Shown: positions 7,186-20,426 of the stretch, one piece after another | How positions within the stretch are numbered: position 1 is the stretch's first letter | How the letters are laid out: the number at the start of each line of letters is the position of its first letter | DNA from: a virus | IMG/VR virus record: IMGVR_UViG_3300021963_000784 | Coordinates: 1-20,930 of that record | Length of the DNA stretch: 20,930 nt | Reading direction: 5' to 3' (one strand) | Translations under genes and position numbers: made by a program | The notes under the pieces: generated by a model | Told to the model about the DNA's origin: nothing | Seen by the model: the letters and a program-made list of their open reading frames with translations, nothing else | Databases searched by the model: none

Positions 7186-7572
7186 ATGGCACATTTTGCA
7201 AAACTTGATAGTCAAAACAATGTTTTAGCAGTTGTTGTTATAAACAATGAAGACGTAGAAAATTTATCTTTTCCAGAAAGTGAACCTCTTGGAATTACTT
7301 TTTGTAAATCTCTTTTTGGTGAAGATACTGTCTGGAAACAAACTAGTTACAATGGTAACTTTCGTCGTCAGTATGCTGCTATAGGTGGGTTTTATTATCC
7401 ACCTAAAGATGTTTTTGTTGAATCTAAACCATATCCTTCTTGGTTGTTTGATAACGATCTTGCTAATTGGGTTGCTCCAATACCAAAACCTTCTATACCA
7501 AGTAACTATGAAGCTATTTGGAATGAAAATTACCTTGAGTGGGATATTGTTTTGAATAGGGAAACGATATGA
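7186..7572 (+). CDS. Conserved small fiber-region protein (MAHFAKLD family)
   Basis: This 128-residue protein begins MAHFAKLDSQNNVLAVVVIN and contains FCKSLFGEDTVWKQTSYNGN, FRRQYAAIGGFYYPPKDVFV and PYPSWLFDND. I associate this pattern with uncharacterised proteins near tail-fiber genes of cyanophages and related T4-like phages. It is rich in Trp, Tyr and Pro. It has no signal peptide or membrane segment. A fiber tip or fiber-assembly role is inferred from position alone. AAGGA lies just upstream of the start. Base composition is clearly lower in GC than the flanking structural genes (one 60-base line near 7201 is 17/60 GC), a trait shared with the next gene. Confidence 0.65.
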   Translation: MAHFAKLDSQNNVLAVVVINNEDVENLSFPESEPLGITFCKSLFGEDTVWKQTSYNGNFRRQYAAIGGFYYPPKDVFVESKPYPSWLFDNDLANWVAPIPKPSIPSNYEAIWNENYLEWDIVLNRETI

Positions 7573-8351
7573 AAACGATCATACCGCTATCTGGTGGTTT
7601 AGATTCTACATATGCTCTTTGGAAACTTTTGTCTGAAACTTCAGATGAAGTAACTGCTTTATTTGTCAATATGGACAATTTTGATACAGCTTGGAATTTG
7701 CGTTACGATCTAAGAGGATTTAGTGGCGGAGATGATCCTACCCTAGCATTTACCGTTTTTGAATGGCTAAAACAAAACGTTCGTACATTTACTCTATTGA
7801 ATCATAGTTTTGATACAAACAATCTAGTTCGAGGTTTTGGAAAAACTAACAATCCTCAAGTTTATGCTACACGATACGCTATTCCTAAAATCAATGAAGG
7901 AGAATATGATCGTATATCTTTTGCTGTAGAAAAAGAAAATGATGGATGGTCCAATGGAGGAACTATAAATTTTCGTAGACCAGGTTCTATTGCTGCTAGA
8001 GAAATATTTGTAGCCACAGCACAGCGTGGATCCATTGATTTCCCATTAGTAACATCAAATTATACTCAAGCAAATGCTCTATTTGAACTACCAAAACCTC
8101 TGCTTGATATAATCATTGCATATTCGGAAAACGACACTTCTTTCAAGTATAAGAAGAAACAATGGCTAAAAAGTTTACTAAATGAAGGTAAAACTACTGA
8201 GGAAATATATGGAATTTGGTACTCTAAATGTACCGTATATCCAGATAAGTGGTTTAGTATGAAATACTGGATTAATGATGTAGAGCCTACTGAACAGAAT
8301 ACGTGGTCTATGCCCGAGTGGCCAACTTCGTATACAGTTCCTGAACAATAA
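7569..8351 (+). CDS. PP-loop superfamily ATP-pyrophosphatase, substrate unknown
   Basis: This 260-residue protein opens MKTIIPLSGGLDSTYALWKL. SGGLDST at 8-14 is the PP-loop that binds ATP pyrophosphate in enzymes that adenylate their substrate (asparagine synthetase, QueC, tRNA thiolases and others). The following ALFVNMDN fits the second strand of that fold. The general layout is QueC-like, but only one cysteine is visible (Cys221). The four-cysteine zinc site of typical QueC is therefore absent, and 7-cyano-7-deazaguanine synthesis should not be assumed. The middle and C-terminal parts (aromatic-rich, for example NDGWSNGGTINFRRPG) match nothing I recognise. The start overlaps the preceding stop (ATGA at 7569), so the two AT-rich genes form a pair. 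It may modify a nucleotide, a tail protein or another small molecule. Confidence 0.7.
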   Translation: MKTIIPLSGGLDSTYALWKLLSETSDEVTALFVNMDNFDTAWNLRYDLRGFSGGDDPTLAFTVFEWLKQNVRTFTLLNHSFDTNNLVRGFGKTNNPQVYATRYAIPKINEGEYDRISFAVEKENDGWSNGGTINFRRPGSIAAREIFVATAQRGSIDFPLVTSNYTQANALFELPKPLLDIIIAYSENDTSFKYKKKQWLKSLLNEGKTTEEIYGIWYSKCTVYPDKWFSMKYWINDVEPTEQNTWSMPEWPTSYTVPEQ

Positions 8352-8392: not shown

Positions 8393-8599
8393 ATGGAACA
8401 GATTTATACAGCAATTCAAGCAGCCGCTGATCAGGACGCCGCAGGATTCCGCGATGCCATCCACTCAGCACTGGCTGATAAAATTAGCGACGCGCTCGAA
8501 CTCAAAAAGGTTGAGATTGCGTCATCGATGTTCATGAATCAGGAAGACGCTTCCGCAGAGGAGACAGTATCAGATGAAGACGTTCAAGCAACTGCGTGA
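8393..8599 (+). CDS. 67: Prohead core protein, gp67-like
   Basis: This 68-residue protein is mainly helical and acidic at its C-terminus. The segment LADKISDALELKKVEIASSM resembles the small prohead core proteins of cyanophage-type T4 relatives. Its place just upstream of the core-like gene, protease, scaffold and capsid genes corresponds to T4 gene 67 in the order 20-67-68-21-22-23. The product would be a minor internal scaffold of the prohead, removed or processed during maturation. The start is supported by AAGGA and the late promoter just upstream. It overlaps the next gene by 26 bases. The short length makes the assignment mainly positional. Confidence 0.65.
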   Translation: MEQIYTAIQAAADQDAAGFRDAIHSALADKISDALELKKVEIASSMFMNQEDASAEETVSDEDVQATA

Positions 8600-9167
8600 A
8601 GCTACTAAAAGGGACGAGAATCCTGAAGCCGCCGCTCTGAAGCCACGTGCGCAAGGCGAGCAAGACTTTGTTGATGCCCATACAGTAGATACACAAGATT
8701 ATCCTGTAAAGGGAACGACCGATAAGCTCAATGCTAATTCAGCTGAGAAGGCAAAGCATCAACCAGCAAACGGTGATCGCACAGCTCCGAAGCAAGGAAC
8801 TTCAGACTTGAAAGATCAGTCTGGTTTCAAAGGTAGCAAGACACCATTGACCCGTGCAGACAAGACACAAGGCGACATGAAGCCAGTCAAGACTTCTGCT
8901 TCTGCTGTCAATGTTCCTGCATTCCAAGAATCAGTATTTGTCAATGCACCAATGATTAGCGAATCAGATGAAGATTCGATTATTGTTGAACTTCTCAATG
9001 GTGATACGATTGAAATCAATGAAGACACATACAACGCAATCGTTGATGTATTCGAAGAACTAACAACAGGCAATCGTGAAGTTTTCCGCGCGGCTATCAA
9101 TGAAAGCGCAGATACATTTGAGCGTATTCTTGATTTCGTAGCTTCTGCTATTGAGGAGCAAGACTAA
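8574..9167 (+). CDS. Putative processed prohead core or internal head protein
   Basis: This 197-residue protein begins MKTFKQLREATKRDEN. That resembles the ten-residue capsid-targeting sequence of T4 internal proteins (MKTYQEF...E then A), and LRE before Ala10 fits the (L/I)-X-E cleavage rule of the T4 prohead protease. Residues 10-115 are hydrophilic and low-complexity, rich in Lys, Asp, Thr, Gln and Gly (PRAQGEQDFVDAHTVDTQDY). Residues 120-197 are acidic and helical with more possible cleavage sites (ISE at 128-130, INE at 148-150 and 175-177). The position matches T4 gene 68, a prohead core protein, but I see no sequence proof of that identity. A good ribosome site (AGGAG, 8559-8563) lies within the preceding gene. 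Confidence 0.65.
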   Translation: MKTFKQLREATKRDENPEAAALKPRAQGEQDFVDAHTVDTQDYPVKGTTDKLNANSAEKAKHQPANGDRTAPKQGTSDLKDQSGFKGSKTPLTRADKTQGDMKPVKTSASAVNVPAFQESVFVNAPMISESDEDSIIVELLNGDTIEINEDTYNAIVDVFEELTTGNREVFRAAINESADTFERILDFVASAIEEQD

Positions 9168-9553
9168 TGGCTGCTGAAGGTATTGTAAATAAACACGTCA
9201 AGGGCGGATGGTTTATTGCCAAGTTCAACGCTAGTGGTTTCATCAAAAGAAATCATCCAACTGCAACCATTGGTGCTAACTCAGCAGGCGAAAACGTTAC
9301 TCGTATGAACATTGTTTCAGCCGAGTGGTCTTGCGGTAACAATGTGCACTGGGTAGTTCAGCGTGGCTCAAATACAGTTCTATTGCTGACAGACGGTCAA
9401 CACGTTATGGATCTTTCAGATTCACGTCTTATCGATAATGGCGACGCGGAAGCAACATCAAATGTTGTTGTAACAAAAGTTGGTACAGGTCCTGCCACAC
9501 TTATTCTAAAGTTGCATAAGACAACTTCAATCTCTGGAGGCTCGCAATACTAA
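9167..9553 (+). CDS. Unknown beta-rich protein in capsid gene cluster
   Basis: I do not recognise this 128-residue protein. It is predicted mostly beta strand, with alternating hydrophobic residues (EWSCGNNVHWVVQRGSNTVL and NVVVTKVGTGPATLILKLHK), one cysteine and no membrane segment. No (L/I)-X-E site is visible near its N-terminus. It sits between the core-like protein and the prohead protease, joined to both by TAATG overlaps, so it should be made with the prohead under the 8359 late promoter. Its size and beta content would suit a head decoration or other minor virion protein, but this is inference from neighbours. Confidence 0.6.
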   Translation: MAAEGIVNKHVKGGWFIAKFNASGFIKRNHPTATIGANSAGENVTRMNIVSAEWSCGNNVHWVVQRGSNTVLLLTDGQHVMDLSDSRLIDNGDAEATSNVVVTKVGTGPATLILKLHKTTSISGGSQY

Positions 9554-10209
9554 TGAAACTCATCTGCGAAGTCAACGAAAATTTACAGATCATTACTGAA
9601 GCTAATGAAGCAGGTGAGAAGCAGTATTTCCTAGAAGGCATTTTGATGCAGGGAAATATCGGTAACAAAAATGGTCGTGTATACCCAACAGATACACTAG
9701 CTAACGAAGTTGCTCGTTACAATCGTGAGTTTGTTCAGCAAAATCGCGCTTATGGTGAGCTTGGTCACCCACAAGGACCAACCATCAATCTAGAACGTGT
9801 ATCCCACATGATCAAAGAACTACGCCAAGATGGAGATAACTTTATCGGGCGTGTCAAGGTTATGGATACACCTTACGGAAATATTGTAAAAAATCTTATG
9901 AAGGAAGGCGCAAAGTTGGGCTTTTCTTCACGCGGTATGGGATCGCTAACAAAGAGAAGAGATGGTCTTATGGAAGTCCAGAAAGACTTTTATCTCGCAA
10001 CTGCGGCTGATATCGTAGCAGACCCTTCTGCACCACATGCTCTTGCTAACGGTATCATGGAAGGTAAAGAATGGGTCTGGGATAACGGCATTCTTATCGA
10101 AAGAGAAGTTGCTCAAATCAAAGCGGATATCAATGAGGGATATGGATCAAAGCAAAATCGCGAAGCGGTTCTGCTCAATGCATTTAATAAATTTCTCAAG
10201 AATATCTAA
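9553..10209 (+). CDS. 21: Prohead core protease gp21
   Basis: This 218-residue protein matches the T4 gp21 serine protease, which cleaves scaffold, core and capsid proteins at (L/I)-X-E sites during head maturation and then degrades itself. Visible family features are NKNGRVYP (38-45), the catalytic-histidine motif GELGHP (His72), the LGFSSRGMG motif carrying the catalytic serine (Ser125 or Ser126), and the following Asp region ATAADIVADPSAP (Asp153 or Asp157). Length is close to T4 gp21 (about 212). It is joined to the preceding gene by TAATG and followed by the late promoter for the scaffold gene. The substrates are probably neighbours: gp22, gp23 and the two proteins with MK(T/S)F N-termini. 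Confidence 0.93.
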   Translation: MKLICEVNENLQIITEANEAGEKQYFLEGILMQGNIGNKNGRVYPTDTLANEVARYNREFVQQNRAYGELGHPQGPTINLERVSHMIKELRQDGDNFIGRVKVMDTPYGNIVKNLMKEGAKLGFSSRGMGSLTKRRDGLMEVQKDFYLATAADIVADPSAPHALANGIMEGKEWVWDNGILIEREVAQIKADINEGYGSKQNREAVLLNAFNKFLKNI

Positions 10210-10268: not shown

Positions 10269-11369
10269 ATGTCAGGTCAGGAATTAAACGTCGAAAAGCT
10301 CGACGTGCAAGAAGCAAAAAAGGCGAGCTACGGCGTTAATGCTGAGATCGCTGATCCTACTGGAGTTCAGGCAACAGTTCCAGGTGGCGCAGCTCAGAAA
10401 GGTGAGGTCGATGGACCAATGCTTCAGGGCTCAAGCGTAAAGCCATATACAAAGGTCGGTATGATCAATTCGATCCTCGACTCACTTTCAGGCATGAAGA
10501 AAGCAGACGTATCAGCTTTCTATGATGCAGCTTTCAAGGGCGACAAGACAAACCCAACACAGGGTTCGTCAGTCAATCCTAAAGAGCGTTCAATTGGCGA
10601 ATCAACTGTTCGCATTACAGCAGAAGATATCGATGTATCAGACGACATCAAGGCTATCTTCTCTGGAACAGAAGTTTCGGAAGAGTTCATTGCAAAGGCA
10701 ACAGAAGTTTATACAGCTGCTGTTCTCTCAAAGGTCAATGAGCAACTCGAAGCAGTTGAAGCCAAGTTTACTGATTCGCTCACAGAAGAAACAGCTACAA
10801 TCAGCGAAGAAATCGTTGAGCGTGTTGATTCATATCTCGACTATGTTGTTGAGCAGTGGATGGAACAAAATGCTGTTGCCGTTGAGCGCGGTCTCAAGGC
10901 AGAAATCGTTGAGTCATTCATGTCAGGCCTGAAGGGTCTGTTCGAAGAGCACTACATCGATATTCCAGACGAAGCAGTTGAAGTTGCTGAAGAGCTAGCC
11001 TCAAAGGTTGAAGCTCTTGAGTCAGCTATCAACGAAGAGATCGAAAAGAATGTTGAGCTGACAGCTCAGCTAAAAGAATTCGAACGTGAAATCGCGTTCG
11101 CTCAAGTTTCAGAAGGCCTGACAGACACGCAAGTCGCAAAGCTGCAGTCACTTTCTGAAGCAGTTGAATTCGAAAATGTTGAATCATATTCGAAGAAGAT
11201 TGCTACACTTCGTGAAAGTTACTTCCCAACAAAATCCTCGGCCGGGACGTTGTCAGAATCAGTAACTCTCGATGAGGAACCAGTGGGTGACGGCGAAGTC
11301 ACTGAAAAGCAGGTTCCAGTTGAAATGGCTGCTTACATGTCTGCGATTACTCGCGGAATCAAAAAGTAA
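10269..11369 (+). CDS. 22: Prohead core scaffold protein gp22
   Basis: This 366-residue acidic, helical protein lies between the protease and the major capsid protein, the place of T4 gp22, the main internal scaffold. The C-terminal half has the gp22-type pattern: a long helix (NVELTAQLKEFEREIAFAQV) followed by SEGLTDTQVAKLQSLSEAVE. Many (L/I)-X-E protease sites are visible (LSE, LRE, ISE, LTE, IGE), as expected for a scaffold cut to small peptides during maturation. It is longer than T4 gp22 (about 269); the extra length includes a low-complexity N-terminus. The Ala/Glu/Val-rich middle and strong codon bias fit a highly expressed gene. A late promoter and strong ribosome site precede it. Confidence 0.88.
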   Translation: MSGQELNVEKLDVQEAKKASYGVNAEIADPTGVQATVPGGAAQKGEVDGPMLQGSSVKPYTKVGMINSILDSLSGMKKADVSAFYDAAFKGDKTNPTQGSSVNPKERSIGESTVRITAEDIDVSDDIKAIFSGTEVSEEFIAKATEVYTAAVLSKVNEQLEAVEAKFTDSLTEETATISEEIVERVDSYLDYVVEQWMEQNAVAVERGLKAEIVESFMSGLKGLFEEHYIDIPDEAVEVAEELASKVEALESAINEEIEKNVELTAQLKEFEREIAFAQVSEGLTDTQVAKLQSLSEAVEFENVESYSKKIATLRESYFPTKSSAGTLSESVTLDEEPVGDGEVTEKQVPVEMAAYMSAITRGIKK

Positions 11370-11393: not shown

Positions 11394-12797
11394 ATGGAAT
11401 CTCTGAACGAAACAATTCAGAAGAAGTGGCAGCCAGTCCTGGAACATCCTGATCTGGCTCCCATTAAGGACGTTCACCGTCGTAGCGTAGTTGCACAGCT
11501 TCTTGAGAACCAAGAGAAGTCAGCCCGTGAAGATGGTTTCGGTTCGGGCGGTTATCGCGCACCAGGTCTCCTGGGCGAAGCTGCTCCAATCAACAGCATG
11601 GGTTCATCTTCTTCAACAGCTGGTGACGGCTCGGTCGATACATTCGATCCAGTTCTCATCTCGCTCGTTCGTCGTTCGATGCCTAACCTCATCGCTTATG
11701 ACATCTGCGGCGTTCAGCCAATGACAGGTCCAACAGGCCTGATCTTCGCAATGCGCTCACGTTACTCAGCTCAGAATGGTACGGAAGCTCTCTTCAACGA
11801 AGCTAACACAACCTTCTCTGGTTCAGCTGCTGGTAACACTGCTTCACGTTTCGTTGTTGGTAACGCTTCTTCTGGACGTGTCCAGGAAGCTAACGACCCA
11901 ACACTTCGTGCATCAGCTGCTACAACTGGTTCGTATACCGTTTCAACTGGTATGTCACGCACAACTGCAGAGCGTCTTGGCGACGGTACTGCCGCTGGTG
12001 GTAACTTCCAGGAAATGGCTTTCTCGATTGAGAAGGTTGCCGTTTCAGCAGTATCACGTGCTCTGAAGGCAGAATACACGATGGAACTGGCTCAGGACCT
12101 CAAGGCCATTCATGGTCTCGACGCTGAGACAGAACTGTCAAACATCCTCGCTGCTGAAATCCTCTCGGAAATCAACCGCGAAGTCGTTCGCACAATCAAC
12201 TACACAGCTTCGGCTGGTGCTCAGGAAAACGTAACAGCTGCTGGTACGTTCAATCTTGACGTTGACTCAAACGGACGTTGGATGGTTGAGAAGTTCAAGG
12301 GTCTGCTCTTCCAGATCGAACGCGAAGCTAACCAGATTGCTAAGGCAACCCGCCGCGGCAAGGGTAACGTTCTGATCTGCGGATCGGACGTTGCATCAGC
12401 TCTCCAGATGGCAGGCGTTCTGGATTACACTCCAGCTCTTGCTAACAACCTCAATGTTGACGATACAGGCAACACCTTCGCTGGTGTTCTCAACGGACGT
12501 ATCAAGGTCTATATCGACCCATACTTCGCTTCGTCAGCTGGTAACCAGTATTTCACACTCGGCTATAAGGGTGCTTCAGCATTCGACGCCGGTCTGTTCT
12601 ACTGCCCATACGTTCCTCTCCAGATGGTTCGCGCCGTTGGTCAGGATTCGTTCCAGCCTAAGATCGGCTTCAAGACACGTTACGGAATGGTTGCAAACCC
12701 ATTCGCAACATCTTCAGCCGACGGTGCAATCGGCGCACCAAATACAAAGGGTTACAACACCTATTATCGCTTCGTCAAGATTTCAAACTTGATGTAA
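11394..12797 (+). CDS. 23: Major capsid protein gp23
   Basis: This 467-residue protein is a T4-type major capsid protein (HK97 fold). The N-terminal region (MESLNETIQKKWQPVLEHPD) is followed by GLLGEAAPIN, where Leu60-Gly61-Glu62 before Ala63 fits the prohead protease rule; T4 gp23 is cut at a similar place (about residue 65). Conserved gp23 segments follow: LVRRSMPNLIAYDICGVQPM, GPTGLIFAMRSRY, AEYTMELAQDLKAIHGLDAE and, near the end, FKTRYGMVANPF. The mature chain would be about 405 residues. Codon choice is strongly biased (CTC, TTC, AAG, CGT, GCT), fitting the most abundant virion protein. AGGAGA (11379-11384) precedes the ATG. It shares the 10222 late promoter with gp22 and is followed by a strong terminator. 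Confidence 0.97.
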   Translation: MESLNETIQKKWQPVLEHPDLAPIKDVHRRSVVAQLLENQEKSAREDGFGSGGYRAPGLLGEAAPINSMGSSSSTAGDGSVDTFDPVLISLVRRSMPNLIAYDICGVQPMTGPTGLIFAMRSRYSAQNGTEALFNEANTTFSGSAAGNTASRFVVGNASSGRVQEANDPTLRASAATTGSYTVSTGMSRTTAERLGDGTAAGGNFQEMAFSIEKVAVSAVSRALKAEYTMELAQDLKAIHGLDAETELSNILAAEILSEINREVVRTINYTASAGAQENVTAAGTFNLDVDSNGRWMVEKFKGLLFQIEREANQIAKATRRGKGNVLICGSDVASALQMAGVLDYTPALANNLNVDDTGNTFAGVLNGRIKVYIDPYFASSAGNQYFTLGYKGASAFDAGLFYCPYVPLQMVRAVGQDSFQPKIGFKTRYGMVANPFATSSADGAIGAPNTKGYNTYYRFVKISNLM

Positions 12798-12851: not shown

Positions 12852-12880
12852 GGGGAGCAGAAATGCTCCCCTTTTTTATT
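12852..12880 (+). terminator. Strong rho-independent terminator after gp23
   Basis: A perfect 8-bp GC-rich stem (GGGGAGCA, 12852-12859, with TGCTCCCC, 12864-12871) is closed by a GAAA tetraloop and followed directly by TTTTTTATT. Its T tract runs into the late promoter at 12880, giving a compact terminator-promoter unit between gp23 and the next gene. Confidence 0.93.
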
Positions 12881-12887
12881 ATAAATA
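12880..12887 (+). promoter_or_regulatory. T4-type late promoter, fused to terminator and start codon
   Basis: An exact TATAAATA followed by GTCCT and then ATG at 12893. With T4 spacing (element at -13 to -6), the predicted first transcribed base is the A of that ATG, so the transcript would be leaderless. The element begins at the end of the gp23 terminator's T tract. Confidence 0.8.
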
Positions 12888-12892
12888 GTCCT

Positions 12893-13480
12893 ATGAAGTC
12901 GTTCTCAAGGTTCCTCGCAGAAGCACCTCTTATGACCAAGATCGGGAGAAAAGAAAAGTTCTCTCTCGAAACTGGTAAACACTTGCCTAAAGAAAAGGCA
13001 GGAACTAAGGTAGCAAGCATCGACAAGCAACACGATCTGCATCACTACAAAGATGATGGTCAAGATATCTATGTTGCTCGTCATAAGCAAACTGGCGTAG
13101 TCCATTCTACAATTGCTGGTAAGCGCAACGCTAAGTCTGGCACATATACAGTTCACACAGCAGACTCAACTGGACAAGGACCGAAAGTTCATAAGGTCTA
13201 TCGTAAGATCATGCAGTCTGGTCACTCGAAGACGCTCGTTGGTAAATCACATTCTCCTGGCGGTCAAAAGATTTGGCAAAGCTTGTCAAAGGAACGTGGA
13301 GTATCTGTACACGGCTGGCATCACGGCAAAGCACACAATATCGATACACGCGACTCAGAAGATACGCATGTGCCTGATACAGAAGCTAGAGCAGGTCATC
13401 TAAAGCATGATCCTGCAGGTAAGACACAATATAAGATGAAGCTTGTTGCTTCTCTTCACAAAAGAAAGACGGCTAAGTAA
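12893..13480 (+). CDS. Putative internal head protein with capsid-targeting N-terminus
   Basis: The chosen start is ATG 12893; a longer frame from GTG 12812 would run back through the terminator and promoter. The 195-residue product begins MKSFSRFLAEAPLMTK. This closely resembles the capsid-targeting sequence of T4 internal proteins, cut by gp21 after Glu10 of (L/I)-X-E; here Leu8-Ala9-Glu10 precedes Ala11. The rest is very rich in Lys and His, small and basic, like T4 internal proteins that are packaged with DNA and injected. A conserved-looking segment KSHSPGGQKIWQSLSKERG (118-136) resembles a motif I associate with uncharacterised phage proteins; I cannot assign an enzyme. It lies between gp23 and gp19 with its own late promoter. 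Function unknown; a packaged or injected protein is the best inference. Confidence 0.7.
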   Translation: MKSFSRFLAEAPLMTKIGRKEKFSLETGKHLPKEKAGTKVASIDKQHDLHHYKDDGQDIYVARHKQTGVVHSTIAGKRNAKSGTYTVHTADSTGQGPKVHKVYRKIMQSGHSKTLVGKSHSPGGQKIWQSLSKERGVSVHGWHHGKAHNIDTRDSEDTHVPDTEARAGHLKHDPAGKTQYKMKLVASLHKRKTAK

Positions 13481-14031
13481 TGTCAGCTGAAGAAAACCAA
13501 CCAAGAAACATAAACTTTCTTGGACAGAATGGGTTTCGCTTTGCTATCAAGCGTCTTCCCACAGTCAACTACTTTTGCCAGAGTGCAACGCTTCCTGCAG
13601 TATCAGTAGGCGCGATTGAAAGTCCAACGCCTTTTGCATTTGTTCCGCGTCCAGGAGATCGCATTACTTATGATCCTCTTTCGCTTACATTCAAGGTTGA
13701 TGAAAATCTAGAAAACTATTTCGAGATTCAGCGCTGGATCGAAGGTCTTGGTCACCCAGATGAGCTAAAGCAAACAGCTGATCTTTCGAGAGAGATTCGT
13801 TCGCAGCAAGTTGCGCCAGGTGCAAGACCAGTTGGTTATTATACCACATTTGTTTCCGATGGCGTTCTGTCAATTCTTACCAGCAACAAGAATGTAAACA
13901 GAAATATCTTCTTTTACGATTTGTTTCCAATAAGCTTATCAGAACTACAGTTCGAATCCACAAATGTCTCGATTGAATATCTAGAGGCTACGGTAACGTT
14001 TAGATATCGTAAATATCATTTGGATGTCTGA
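13480..14031 (+). CDS. 19: Tail tube protein, gp19 family
   Basis: This 183-residue protein has the T4-like tail tube pattern: an N-terminal INFLGQNGFRFAIKRLP then VNYFCQSATLPAVSVG, a middle DPLSLTFKVDENLENYFEIQ with RWIEGLGHPDE, and a C-terminal FYDLFPISLSELQFE segment followed by VSIEYLEATVTFRYRKYHLD. These are the strands of the tube fold shared by gp19 and related tail proteins. It polymerises into the inner tube of the contractile tail. T4 gp19 is about 163 residues. A second gp19-like tube protein may exist elsewhere in the genome, as in some cyanophages, so this could be the paralog rather than the main tube subunit. It joins the preceding gene by TAATG, with no strong ribosome site of its own. 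Confidence 0.82.
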   Translation: MSAEENQPRNINFLGQNGFRFAIKRLPTVNYFCQSATLPAVSVGAIESPTPFAFVPRPGDRITYDPLSLTFKVDENLENYFEIQRWIEGLGHPDELKQTADLSREIRSQQVAPGARPVGYYTTFVSDGVLSILTSNKNVNRNIFFYDLFPISLSELQFESTNVSIEYLEATVTFRYRKYHLDV

Positions 14032-16062: not shown

Positions 16063-16405
16063 TGGTGAGGATCTGCTCGTCCAACTTGTAGGAGACGAAG
16101 AAGATTGCTTGTGGGTTACACAACCTTATCGTGTTGAACTTATGCCGTCTGTAACCAACATGACCGTTACGACTTCTATTATGCGCTGGATTCCATTTGA
16201 AAGCTTGATGGATGAGAAAGTTCGTATTAGCAAGGCATATATCTTGACATACATGATGGTTGATGATATAGTAGCAGATAAGTATCTCAATACAATCAAT
16301 GAACAAGCGAGAGAGGAGAGAGCCCGAGCCATGGAGCGCCAGAAAGAAGTGGCAAAAAGAATGAGAACAATTCTAGGCGCTAACACTTCAGGATCCTTAC
16401 ACTAA
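16025..16405 (+). CDS. Phage Sm-like (LSm/Hfq-fold) protein
   Basis: The chosen start is ATG 16025, preceded by AGGAG (16015-16019); the frame also runs upstream to a weaker start at 15977, well inside uvsW. The 126-residue product begins MDQGEVYFLKMNNGEDLLVQ. It continues as alternating strands (CLWVTQPYRVELM, TTSIMRWIPFESLMDEKVRI, AYILTYMMVDDIVADKYLNT). This matches the Sm-like proteins known from T4-like cyanophages, which form rings of the Hfq/LSm type. Residues about 95-126 form a charged helical tail (REERARAMERQKEVAKRMRT). The protein may bind RNA or another partner; its function in phages is not established. It overlaps uvsW by 38 bases and abuts the late sigma factor gene (TAATG). 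Confidence 0.7.
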   Translation: MDQGEVYFLKMNNGEDLLVQLVGDEEDCLWVTQPYRVELMPSVTNMTVTTSIMRWIPFESLMDEKVRISKAYILTYMMVDDIVADKYLNTINEQAREERARAMERQKEVAKRMRTILGANTSGSLH

Positions 16406-16956
16406 TGAACAAAGTAATCAAACCAAAAGCTAAGAAACACTACGTCAACAATAAAGACTTGTATGCCGCTATGGTTGAATACAAGAAACTCGTTGTCGAA
16501 GCTAAAGATACTGGCAAGCAAAATCCTCGTATTCCTCACTATATTGGCGAGTCGATTATGAAGATTGCAACACATCTTGCCTATCGTCCTAACTTTGCAA
16601 ACTACACGTTTCGCGAAGAGATGATTTCAGACGGTATCGAAAACTGCTTGCTCTATATCAACAACTTCGATCCGAGCAAGTCACAGAATCCTTTTGCTTA
16701 TTTCACTCAGATCATTTACTTTGCTTTCATTCGACGTATTCAAAAAGAGAAGAAGCATCTTTATACAAAGTATGCTGCTATCGAATATGCCAATATTATG
16801 GGCGAAACATCAGAAGCACAAGACGGCGACCGTAGCAACAACTACGATACAGATATCAAATACGGCGAGTGGTCGAAAGAACAGATGGAAAAGTTTATGG
16901 CTGACTTTGAAAATAGCAAAGGAATCAAGCGCGGGAGCAAGAAAGCTACAGCATGA
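16405..16956 (+). CDS. 55: Late transcription sigma factor gp55
   Basis: This 183-residue protein (T4 gp55 is 185) is the small sigma-like factor that directs host RNA polymerase to TATAAATA late promoters, working with gp33 and the sliding clamp gp45. The family core is visible: an early basic segment, HYIGESIMKIATHLAYRPNF, FREEMISDGIENCLLYINNF and DPSKSQNPFAYFTQIIYFAF (89-108), the region 2-like part that contacts polymerase and the -10 element. Three intergenic TATAAATA sites in this window (8359, 10222, 12880) are its expected targets. The gene overlaps its neighbours at both ends (TAATG at 16403, ATGA at 16953) inside the uvsY-gp46 operon, so late transcription is tied to expression of recombination genes. 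Confidence 0.95.
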   Translation: MNKVIKPKAKKHYVNNKDLYAAMVEYKKLVVEAKDTGKQNPRIPHYIGESIMKIATHLAYRPNFANYTFREEMISDGIENCLLYINNFDPSKSQNPFAYFTQIIYFAFIRRIQKEKKHLYTKYAAIEYANIMGETSEAQDGDRSNNYDTDIKYGEWSKEQMEKFMADFENSKGIKRGSKKATA

Positions 16957-18196: not shown

Positions 18197-19896
18197 TTCA
18201 CTTCAAAAAAGTCCGTTGGAAGAACTTCCTTTCAACGGGTAATGCCTTCACTGAAATCCAACTAGATCAAAATGACACAACTCTCATCGTTGGTGAAAAC
18301 GGTGCGGGTAAGTCAACGATGCTGGACGCATTGTGTTTTGGTCTATACGGTAAACCGTTCCGTAAGATCAAGAAGGATCAGCTTATCAACTCAGTCAACG
18401 GTCGTGATGTTCTTGTCGAGATTGAGTTTAGCACACACGATCATCAATACACTATTAGACGCGGAATCAAACCAAGTCTATTTGAAATTTTAGAAGATGG
18501 TGTGTTGATTGACCAAGACGCAGCTGCACGCGACTATCAGGAAATGCTTGAGAAACATATTCTCAAACTAAGCCAAAAGTCGTTTACGCAGATTGTGATT
18601 CTTGGTTCATCGTCGTTCGTTCCGTTCATGCAACTGACAACGAACGTTCGACGTGAAGTCATCGAGGATCTGTTAGATATCCGCGTCTTTTCCTCGATGG
18701 CACTTCTTTTGAAAGATCGTATCGCAACTAATCGTTCGGAATATACGATTGTCGATAACGATATTACAAATACTGCAAACAATATCAAGTTGCAGGAAAA
18801 GTTGCGTAAAGACCTAGCTCAAGAAAAGAGTGAGAAGATCGATGAGTATCTTAGCCGTATTGAAGCAGCTCGTAAAGCCGTCGTGCGTGACGAAGCGGAA
18901 GCTGCTACTCTCGAAGCTGAAATTGACGAGTATCTTGAGCAGATCGACGACAAAGATTCTGTAAGCACACGTATTCAAAAGATCCTTACGCTGGAGTCAA
19001 ATCTTGAGAAGAAGAAAGCGAATGCTCGAAAAACAATCAAGTTCTATCACGACAACGACGAGTGTCCTACCTGTACACAAACAATCGACGCTACTATCAA
19101 GTGCGAAAAGATCGAGGAAAAGGAACATATTTTATCGGAAGTTGACGGTGCGTTGCAAACGCTCCAGAGCAGCTTGGGCGAAGCTGAACTTCGCTTGTCT
19201 GAGATCACAGGGATACAACGTGAAATTAGTTCGCGACAGCATCTTCTTAGGGACACACATTCTTCAATCAAAGCCTATCAAAAGGAAATCAGCCTTTGGG
19301 AAAAGGAAATCGCGAATGCACGCAACAAAACGGAATCGTTCAATGAGTCAACGATACTAGAACTAAACGAGCAGCAGAACGCTTTGCTAACACGGAAGAA
19401 CGATATTCTAGCAGAGCGTGAGATGTTTGATCTTGCTACTATCATTCTTCGTGATAGCGGCATCAAGTCTCGTATCATCAAGCAATATATCCCGATCATA
19501 AATACGTTGGTCAATAAGTATCTTGCTGCCATGGACTTCTTTGTGAAGTTCGAATTGAACGAGTCGTTTGAGGAAAAGATTCTGTCTCGTCATAGAGATG
19601 ACTTTACCTACGACTCGTTCTCGGAAGGCGAGAAGATGCGTATCGACCTTGCGCTTCTATTCACCTGGCGTTCCATCGCTCGTATGAAAAATAGCGCCCA
19701 TACTAACCTTCTTATACTTGACGAAGTATTTGATGCATCGCTTGATGCCAATGGCTGCGACGAGTTTCTGAAGCTCATACATAGTCTTGAAGATTCCAAT
19801 ATCTTTGTTATCTCGCACAAAGGTGATGTTCTTCACGACAAGTTTAGCAATACTCTGCGCTTTACAAAACAGCAGAACTTTAGTAGGATTGTATAA
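18193..19896 (+). CDS. 46: Recombination nuclease subunit gp46 (SbcC/Rad50-like)
   Basis: This 567-residue protein (T4 gp46 is 560) is the SMC-type ATPase partner of gp47. It opens MIHFKKVRWKNFLSTGNAFT with Walker A GENGAGKS at 34-41. A long coiled coil is interrupted near the middle by the zinc-hook CPTC (291-294), through which two molecules join. The C-terminal lobe has the ABC signature FSEGEK (476-481) and Walker B LLILDE (Asp510-Glu511), then a SHKG switch. With gp47 it makes 3' single-stranded ends for UvsX/UvsY strand invasion. It overlaps the small upstream gene (ATGA) and the deformylase start (TAATG). Confidence 0.97.
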   Translation: MIHFKKVRWKNFLSTGNAFTEIQLDQNDTTLIVGENGAGKSTMLDALCFGLYGKPFRKIKKDQLINSVNGRDVLVEIEFSTHDHQYTIRRGIKPSLFEILEDGVLIDQDAAARDYQEMLEKHILKLSQKSFTQIVILGSSSFVPFMQLTTNVRREVIEDLLDIRVFSSMALLLKDRIATNRSEYTIVDNDITNTANNIKLQEKLRKDLAQEKSEKIDEYLSRIEAARKAVVRDEAEAATLEAEIDEYLEQIDDKDSVSTRIQKILTLESNLEKKKANARKTIKFYHDNDECPTCTQTIDATIKCEKIEEKEHILSEVDGALQTLQSSLGEAELRLSEITGIQREISSRQHLLRDTHSSIKAYQKEISLWEKEIANARNKTESFNESTILELNEQQNALLTRKNDILAEREMFDLATIILRDSGIKSRIIKQYIPIINTLVNKYLAAMDFFVKFELNESFEEKILSRHRDDFTYDSFSEGEKMRIDLALLFTWRSIARMKNSAHTNLLILDEVFDASLDANGCDEFLKLIHSLEDSNIFVISHKGDVLHDKFSNTLRFTKQQNFSRIV

Positions 19897-20426
19897 TGGA
19901 ACTAATCAAAGGTAGTGATCCGCGTCTCAAGCAGACTTGTCCTGAGTTTGACTTTGATAATGGTTATATCATGGAAGACGGAACTGTCATTCATGCCAAA
20001 GAGCTATTCGAACTTCTCCGCGACAAGATGATTGAGAAAGCTGGCGTAGGTCTTTCTGCACCACAGCTTGGTATTATGACTCGTGTCTTTGTTATTGGCA
20101 ATCCATCTAGACCAGATGAAATCATTGGCGTGTTCAATCCAATAATTACAAACTATGACGAAGAAGATGTGGTTTATGAAGAAGGCTGCTTGACATATCC
20201 CGGATTATTTGTTAAGATAAAGCGTCCACGTGGGATTCGTGTTCGTTATCGTGGTTGGGATGGTGATGGTGATGCAGTTCGCTATGAAGGATTTACTGCC
20301 AGAATATTTCAACACGAATACGATCATCTGAATGGTATTACGTTTCAACAAAGAGCCAATCGATTCCATTTAGAAAAAGCACGTAACTTCAAAGCTAAGG
20401 CTGAAAAGAGATTGAAATCGGCATGA
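19896..20426 (+). CDS. def: Peptide deformylase
   Basis: This 176-residue protein carries the three deformylase motifs: GVGLSAPQ (50-57), EGCL (96-99, metal ligand Cys98) and QHEYDH (139-144, metal ligands His140 and His144, catalytic Glu141). The enzyme removes the formyl group from the N-terminal methionine of new proteins. Phage versions are known in T4-like cyanophages and other marine phages and probably keep maturation running on phage or plastid/host proteins during infection. Length is near the bacterial norm (about 170), with a basic C-terminal helix (FHLEKARNFKAKAEKRLKSA) rather than the shortened tail of some cyanophage forms. It is coupled to gp46 by TAATG and to the next gene by ATGA. 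Confidence 0.96.
   Translation: MELIKGSDPRLKQTCPEFDFDNGYIMEDGTVIHAKELFELLRDKMIEKAGVGLSAPQLGIMTRVFVIGNPSRPDEIIGVFNPIITNYDEEDVVYEEGCLTYPGLFVKIKRPRGIRVRYRGWDGDGDAVRYEGFTARIFQHEYDHLNGITFQQRANRFHLEKARNFKAKAEKRLKSA

Follow-up and report, generated by a model that had tools for sequence, protein, structure and literature searches.

A predicted capsid-targeted protein with a GNAT-like fold encoded beside the capsid gene of an uncultured T4-like phage

Introduction

What does a T4-like phage encode directly behind its major capsid gene, and could the product travel to the host inside the virion? The question is raised by a small gene in IMG/VR record IMGVR_UViG_3300021963_000784, from an uncultured T4-like phage, of which we examined 20,930 nucleotides on one strand (positions 1-20,930, hereafter the window). 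A first-pass annotation of this DNA had proposed that the gene encodes a small, basic, His- and Lys-rich protein that starts with a T4-like targeting peptide and cleavage site, with a prohead protease in the same cluster, and that the protein is packaged, injected and perhaps active against the host. Most of what is known about internal proteins of this kind comes from coliphages, and there IP1-3 of T4 act as restriction inhibitors.

Gene neighborhood and relatives

The open reading frame lies exactly where the first-pass annotation had set a gene beside the capsid gene, directly 3' of gp23. The gene order is gp21 protease, gp22 scaffold, gp23 capsid, the gene at 12893-13480, gp3-type, uvsY, uvsW, gp55, gp47, and gp46, with the last three assigned by synteny with annotated phages.

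9553-10209, + strand: gp21-type prohead protease, predicted cutter of the leader (Pfam Peptidase_S77, E 4e-30; phrog_207, E 9e-74)
10269-11369, + strand: gp22 scaffold, with which the leader is predicted to interact (Pfam T4_CASP, E 6e-68)
11394-12797, + strand: gp23 major capsid protein (Pfam Gp23, E 9e-147)
12893-13480, + strand: precursor coding sequence, 195 aa (open reading frame; full-length homologues in IMG/VR contigs)
13480-14031, + strand: next gene, gp3-type tail terminator of the tail-tube family (phrog_45, E 1e-42)
16405-16956, + strand: gp55-type late sigma factor, which would read TATAAATA promoters (synteny with annotated gp55; tblastn to relatives)

The same phage encodes both the gp21 protease and the gp22 scaffold expected to accompany a T4-type internal protein carrying a capsid-targeting sequence (CTS), so the protease named in the first-pass annotation is indeed in the cluster. 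The gp3-type gene starts in overlap with the stop codon of the 12893-13480 gene, and P-SSM2 has gp3 at the equivalent place. By gp23, which carries a cleavage-type site of its own (LLGE↓AAPIN, the arrow marking the cut), the nearest annotated phages are Pelagibacter phage Mosig, Stenotrophomonas phage DLP_6, and marine T4-like phages, at ~61-65%. The mature chain of 185 residues (~20 kDa) has a pI of 10.05, 35 K+R versus 17 D+E, and 18 His, which bears out the earlier description of its composition.

Full-length relatives at 86-100% were found in 15 IMG/VR contigs, together with further short forms at 56-62% (L116/L125, L129, L132, and L138) and a distant short form, L072 (profile E 3e-4), that lies directly 5' of gp3. 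No Pfam, NCBIfam, PHROG, or PADLOC family fits the protein and no curated acetyltransferase profile matches it; there was no relative among 50,697 phage records, nor did a pattern scan, not exhaustive, of 84,980 genomes of bacteria and archaea show one. Several candidate matches were rejected: a ketoacyl-synthase (Pfam, E 0.001, below the curated cut-off) scored too low and disagrees with the predicted fold, PDB sequence matches to designed WD40/WRAP and myomesin were repeat-driven or short chance stretches, a tblastn match in Sinorhizobium phage phiM12 runs antisense to an endolysin gene, and matches in Erwinia phage AH04 and MED4-213 (E 7-9) were not counted as evidence.

A candidate capsid-targeting leader

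12893-12922, + strand: capsid-targeting-like leader MKSFSRFLAE (comparison with T4 ipII/ipIII, chance estimate, fixed positions, IPIII map of PMC9026906)

The protein begins with MKSFSRFLAEAPL, read as MKSFSRFLAE↓APL, and gp21 is predicted to cut after E10, between positions 12922 and 12923. In the T4 record, ipII and ipIII start MKTYQEFIAE↓A, and ipI starts MKTFKEF with ITE↓A further on. Suppressor experiments on T4 IPIII tied targeting chiefly to residues 4 and 7, and processing to residues 8 and 10 (PMC9026906). All short-form homologues of our protein have M1, F4, F7, [LI]8, and E10 fixed, including both targeting residues, and vary at positions 2, 3, 5, 6, and 9; the L/I-x-E that ends at residue 10 (FLAE↓A) recurs as [LI]xE in all homologues, whichever architecture they have. 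Leader codons vary synonymously (dN/dS ~0.11), and the leader is selected at the protein level.

Of the window's 163 open ATG starts, only that of the 12893-13480 gene matches the leader pattern, compared with 0.007 matches per window expected by residue shuffling, and in the 60-110 kb region of T4 the same pattern picks out two starts, ipII and ipIII. Across 80 gp23-bearing loci of relatives it occurs at four starts where 0.2 would be expected; these include one distant homologue, a protein that matches a head-scaffolding PHROG (L046, 2e-6), and one with a weak match to a PHROG named internal head protein (L042, E 0.025). The leader is also shared by otherwise unrelated cargoes: on one contig (L009/L164) a homologue is followed, before gp3, by an 85-aa basic protein starting MKSFSQFLKE↓GSPMPG (L164:707-964) that is otherwise unrelated to its neighbor and has no relative in phage records. 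On sequence grounds, the resemblance to the T4 CTS is not a chance one, and among the traits of T4-type CTS internal proteins, all those that sequence can test are present here. A separate observation concerns a 197-aa protein at window 8574-9167, which starts MKTFKQLRE↓ATK, a nine-residue leader variant, adjoins a gp67-like prohead core gene, and is perhaps a core protein.

A late promoter followed by an interval of variable content

12852-12877, + strand: intrinsic terminator after gp23 (-16.7 kcal/mol, z -4.4)
12880-12887, + strand: T4-type late promoter element TATAAATA, ending 5 nt before the ATG

Late expression is predicted from the promoter element directly upstream of the gene. Terminator and TATAAATA recur in the close short-form homologues, in which the stems differ yet stay paired, and L138 has AATAAATA at the promoter position; directly 5' of the distant homologue in L072 there is neither. 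No Shine-Dalgarno fits between TATAAATA and the ATG (window 12880-12893), and because the element sits 5 nt from the start codon, with the ATG at about the expected +1, the late mRNA of this gene may be leaderless.

The gap between gp23 and gp3 is shorter than 200 nt in 46 of the 68 relatives that have both genes in view, and a NATAAATA element is present in 39 of those 46 short gaps. Nearly all other relatives lack a gene of the 12893-13480 type here, and the other gaps, in different phages, hold unrelated genes; a 2OG-Fe(II) oxygenase and an exonuclease are among them, as are what look like a ferredoxin and a GIY-YIG protein. Since relatives without the gene keep the terminator and promoter pair between gp23 and gp3, the gene fills a variable cargo slot: the content of the interval differs between phages, a late promoter stands in front of it, and our gene lies between that promoter and gp3.

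A second architecture with a conserved cleavage motif

On four contigs (L130, L131, L134, and L135) the same domain stands at the C-terminal end of a longer protein (341-383 aa), whose N-terminal part is an EDAPANxxG-type module, accompanied in three of the four by a KGKHWKTYIGEDEHG module. The next gene in L130, L134, and L135 is, by appearance, a chitinase-like lysozyme, and the L131 contig has its own gp21 as well as a syntenic gp23 and gp3, with no gene separating the two. These proteins lack the decapeptide, yet [LI]xE↓APL is kept (NLSE↓APLL, DLQE↓APLL, NITE↓APLL, and NLQE↓APLI), so they too would be cut by a prohead protease. Conservation between the short and second architectures extends to residues 12-30, which means that [LI]xE is not conserved in isolation; the low AlphaFold confidence at residues 1-22 makes a constraint from the fold on the protease motif unlikely.

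With the fixed leader positions, the leader on the tandem gene, the late promoter, and the variable slot, the second architecture gives strong sequence support to the capsid targeting and cleavage first proposed for this protein. Modules of the [LI]xEDAPxNxxGGGxIAG and KGKHWKTYIGEDEHG types front different phage proteins (L130:1049-2074, L134:82-1188, L135:322-1365, L159, and L160) and occur in Methylophilales phage Melnitz and Sinorhizobium phages. Such recurring modules are possibly a longer processing or targeting propeptide.

Predicted fold of the cargo

13004-13336, + strand: GNAT-like core, residues 38-148 (AlphaFold2 with alignment A4; Foldseek against PDB and BFVD)
13163-13186, + strand: DSTGQGPK, residues 91-98, where GNAT motif A would lie (A3/A4 alignment and model)
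13250-13276, + strand: HSPGGQKIW, residues 120-128, opening the helix that follows the fifth strand (alignment and model)

The structure prediction that the first-pass annotation had suggested was run and returned a GNAT-like fold, which that annotation had not recognized. AlphaFold2 with the diverse alignment A4 reached pLDDT 77.6 and pTM 0.75; an earlier model from 15 near-identical sequences (pLDDT 44) was set aside. The model runs through strands at 38-42, 47-54, 57-64, 69-79, and 84-92, a helix at 99-108, a strand at 114-117, a helix at 122-133, and final strands at 137-143 and 146-148. The PDB matches listed by Foldseek are N-acetyltransferases, including PA2578, N-acetylglutamate synthase, PCAF/GCN5, SpeG, and PanZ, at modest scores (best E 1e-3, TM ~0.35, range 0.3-0.4), along with chains of isocitrate lyase 2, whose C-terminal domain is GNAT-like. 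Against viral models (BFVD), the top match was an uncharacterized phage protein (TM 0.71, E 7e-13), and later matches include NAT_SF- and GNAT-annotated proteins. From this model and its matches, the cargo probably has a GNAT fold.

The usual GNAT motif A reads R/Q-x-x-G-x-G/A. At the same position, between the strand ending at 92 and the helix at 99-108, the cargo has DSTGxGPK, a loop nearly invariant in both architectures that retains the motif A glycines and carries Asp where Arg or Gln is usual (DxxGxG). HSPGGQKIW, previously singled out as a partial motif of its own, belongs instead to a conserved segment, HS[PE]GGQK[IL]WQ, located at the fold's fourth helix. The core is under strong purifying selection (dN/dS 0.06). 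That the cargo is a functional acetyltransferase is something we infer, and an active enzyme seems a little short of evenly likely.

Proposed mechanism and alternatives

A CTS-like tag joined to an acetyltransferase-type predicted fold suggests a protein that is probably virion-borne and delivered into the host at infection. We lean modestly towards a T4-type internal head protein that is cut by gp21 and injected as a GNAT-fold domain acylating a host macromolecule. The gene would be transcribed late from its own gp55-type promoter; through its ten-residue leader the protein would attach to the scaffold core and thereby be incorporated into the prohead; gp21 would cut after E10, leaving the 185-residue, strongly basic domain stored with the DNA; and this domain would enter the host along with the genome. 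There it would most likely act as an early takeover or counter-defense factor, acylating a macromolecule such as a subunit of RNA polymerase, a ribosomal protein, or a defense protein. Packaging and cleavage are likely given the leader evidence, and action in the host is fairly likely; injection, catalysis, and target are presumptive. An anti-host effector role would be consistent with the GNAT fold and with the activities of T4 IPs and Alt.

The leading alternative keeps packaging, cleavage, and injection but makes the GNAT fold non-catalytic, with the protein blocking a restriction or other defense protein as T4 IP1-3 do, and its charge serving DNA association. Each of IP1-3 blocks a GmrSD-type enzyme (PMC12373910), and the Asp in motif A and the missing GNAT profile match both fit such an inhibitor. 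We nonetheless rate it unlikely, if worth serious attention, as the purifying selection on the core and the constancy of DSTGxGPK in both architectures suggest a preserved chemical function and not a fast-evolving inhibitor. The high pI, the 18 His residues, the place beside gp23, and the CTS-like protein of L046 with its head-scaffolding match could alternatively point to a packaged protein that is part of the head or condenses the DNA, remaining in the virion or acting on it, with no effector role in the host; a slot without the gene in nearly all other relatives and an enzyme-type predicted fold make this improbable.

It is more improbable still that the leader likeness is coincidental and the protein a late cytoplasmic GNAT-like one that is never packaged. 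A ten-residue motif is short, the support for it comes from sequence, and another protein of a relative (L162) starts MKSFKQFVKEE, which resembles the leader without an L/I-x-E cut. Against coincidence, exactly the functional leader positions are conserved, at a chance expectation of 0.007, the leader is repeated on an unrelated tandem gene, and the cleavage motif persists in the second architecture. Beyond the gp21-cut, injected acylating protein that we favor for this phage, we advance only tentatively the wider idea that T4-like aquatic phages deliver an undescribed acyltransferase by a transferable tag: one enzyme domain would be loaded through either a CTS or a long N-terminal propeptide, freed by the prohead protease in each case, and would modify a host protein within the opening minutes of infection.

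Comparison with known systems

T4 Alt is a packaged ADP-ribosyltransferase, and our protein would resemble it in being of modifying-enzyme type, with packaging, trimming by a prohead protease, and injection all predicted; it differs from Alt in fold and chemistry, and Alt lacks this decapeptide. The cuts in Alt fall at ITE-6 and close to the C-terminus (PMC5694885). Alt and IP1-3 are the precedents, with IP1-3 being packaged counter-restriction proteins (PMC12373910, PMC3012670), and an IPIII that lacks the CTS remains functional inside the host (PMC9391042). With IPI, IPII, and IPIII our protein shares a ten-residue N-terminal leader (aromatic 4, F7, I/L8, and E10), a predicted gp21-type cut, and a small basic cargo that varies between phages. 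Unlike theirs, its mature part, unrelated to them in sequence, has a predicted GNAT fold, and its gene lies between gp23 and gp3, outside the T4 ip loci, with its own TATAAATA promoter directly before the ATG.

Injection has been predicted for phage proteins that contain GNATs (PMC5512222). Another GNAT, phiKMV Rac, described from phiKMV-like podoviruses (PMC7552054), acts on the alpha subunit of RNA polymerase (PMC7552054, PMC7824862). The predicted fold and the phage conflict context are common to our protein, Rac, and the GNATs of phage polyvalent proteins, some of which are predicted to be packaged (PMC5512222); unlike our protein, to which they gave no sequence match here, those GNATs are RimI-like, many lie in large multidomain proteins, and a CTS on them is unreported in the literature searched. 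A literature search found no description of a CTS-tagged GNAT. The second architecture recalls inner head proteins of the giant phages SPN3US and phiKZ, in which the prohead protease frees cargo from a much longer propeptide (PMC5694885), but those belong to another phage group and carry other cargo, and the cut in the second architecture is a predicted one.

The findings would extend CTS delivery to uncultured aquatic T4-like phages, with conserved leader positions and an enzyme-type fold joined to the tag. An M-x-x-F-x-x-F-[LI]-x-E start, a late promoter, and a slot beside gp23 may together offer a sequence rule for injected proteins of unculturable phages.

Other features of the window

Elsewhere in the window, positions 162-785 encode a probable tail-fiber protein with collagen-like GxxGxx repeats (GEKGDKGDKG...), and 7569-8351, between tail-fiber and prohead core genes, encodes a 260-aa protein with a PP-loop/QueC-like N-terminus. 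A peptide deformylase-like gene, judged by motif appearance, follows gp46 at 19896-20426.
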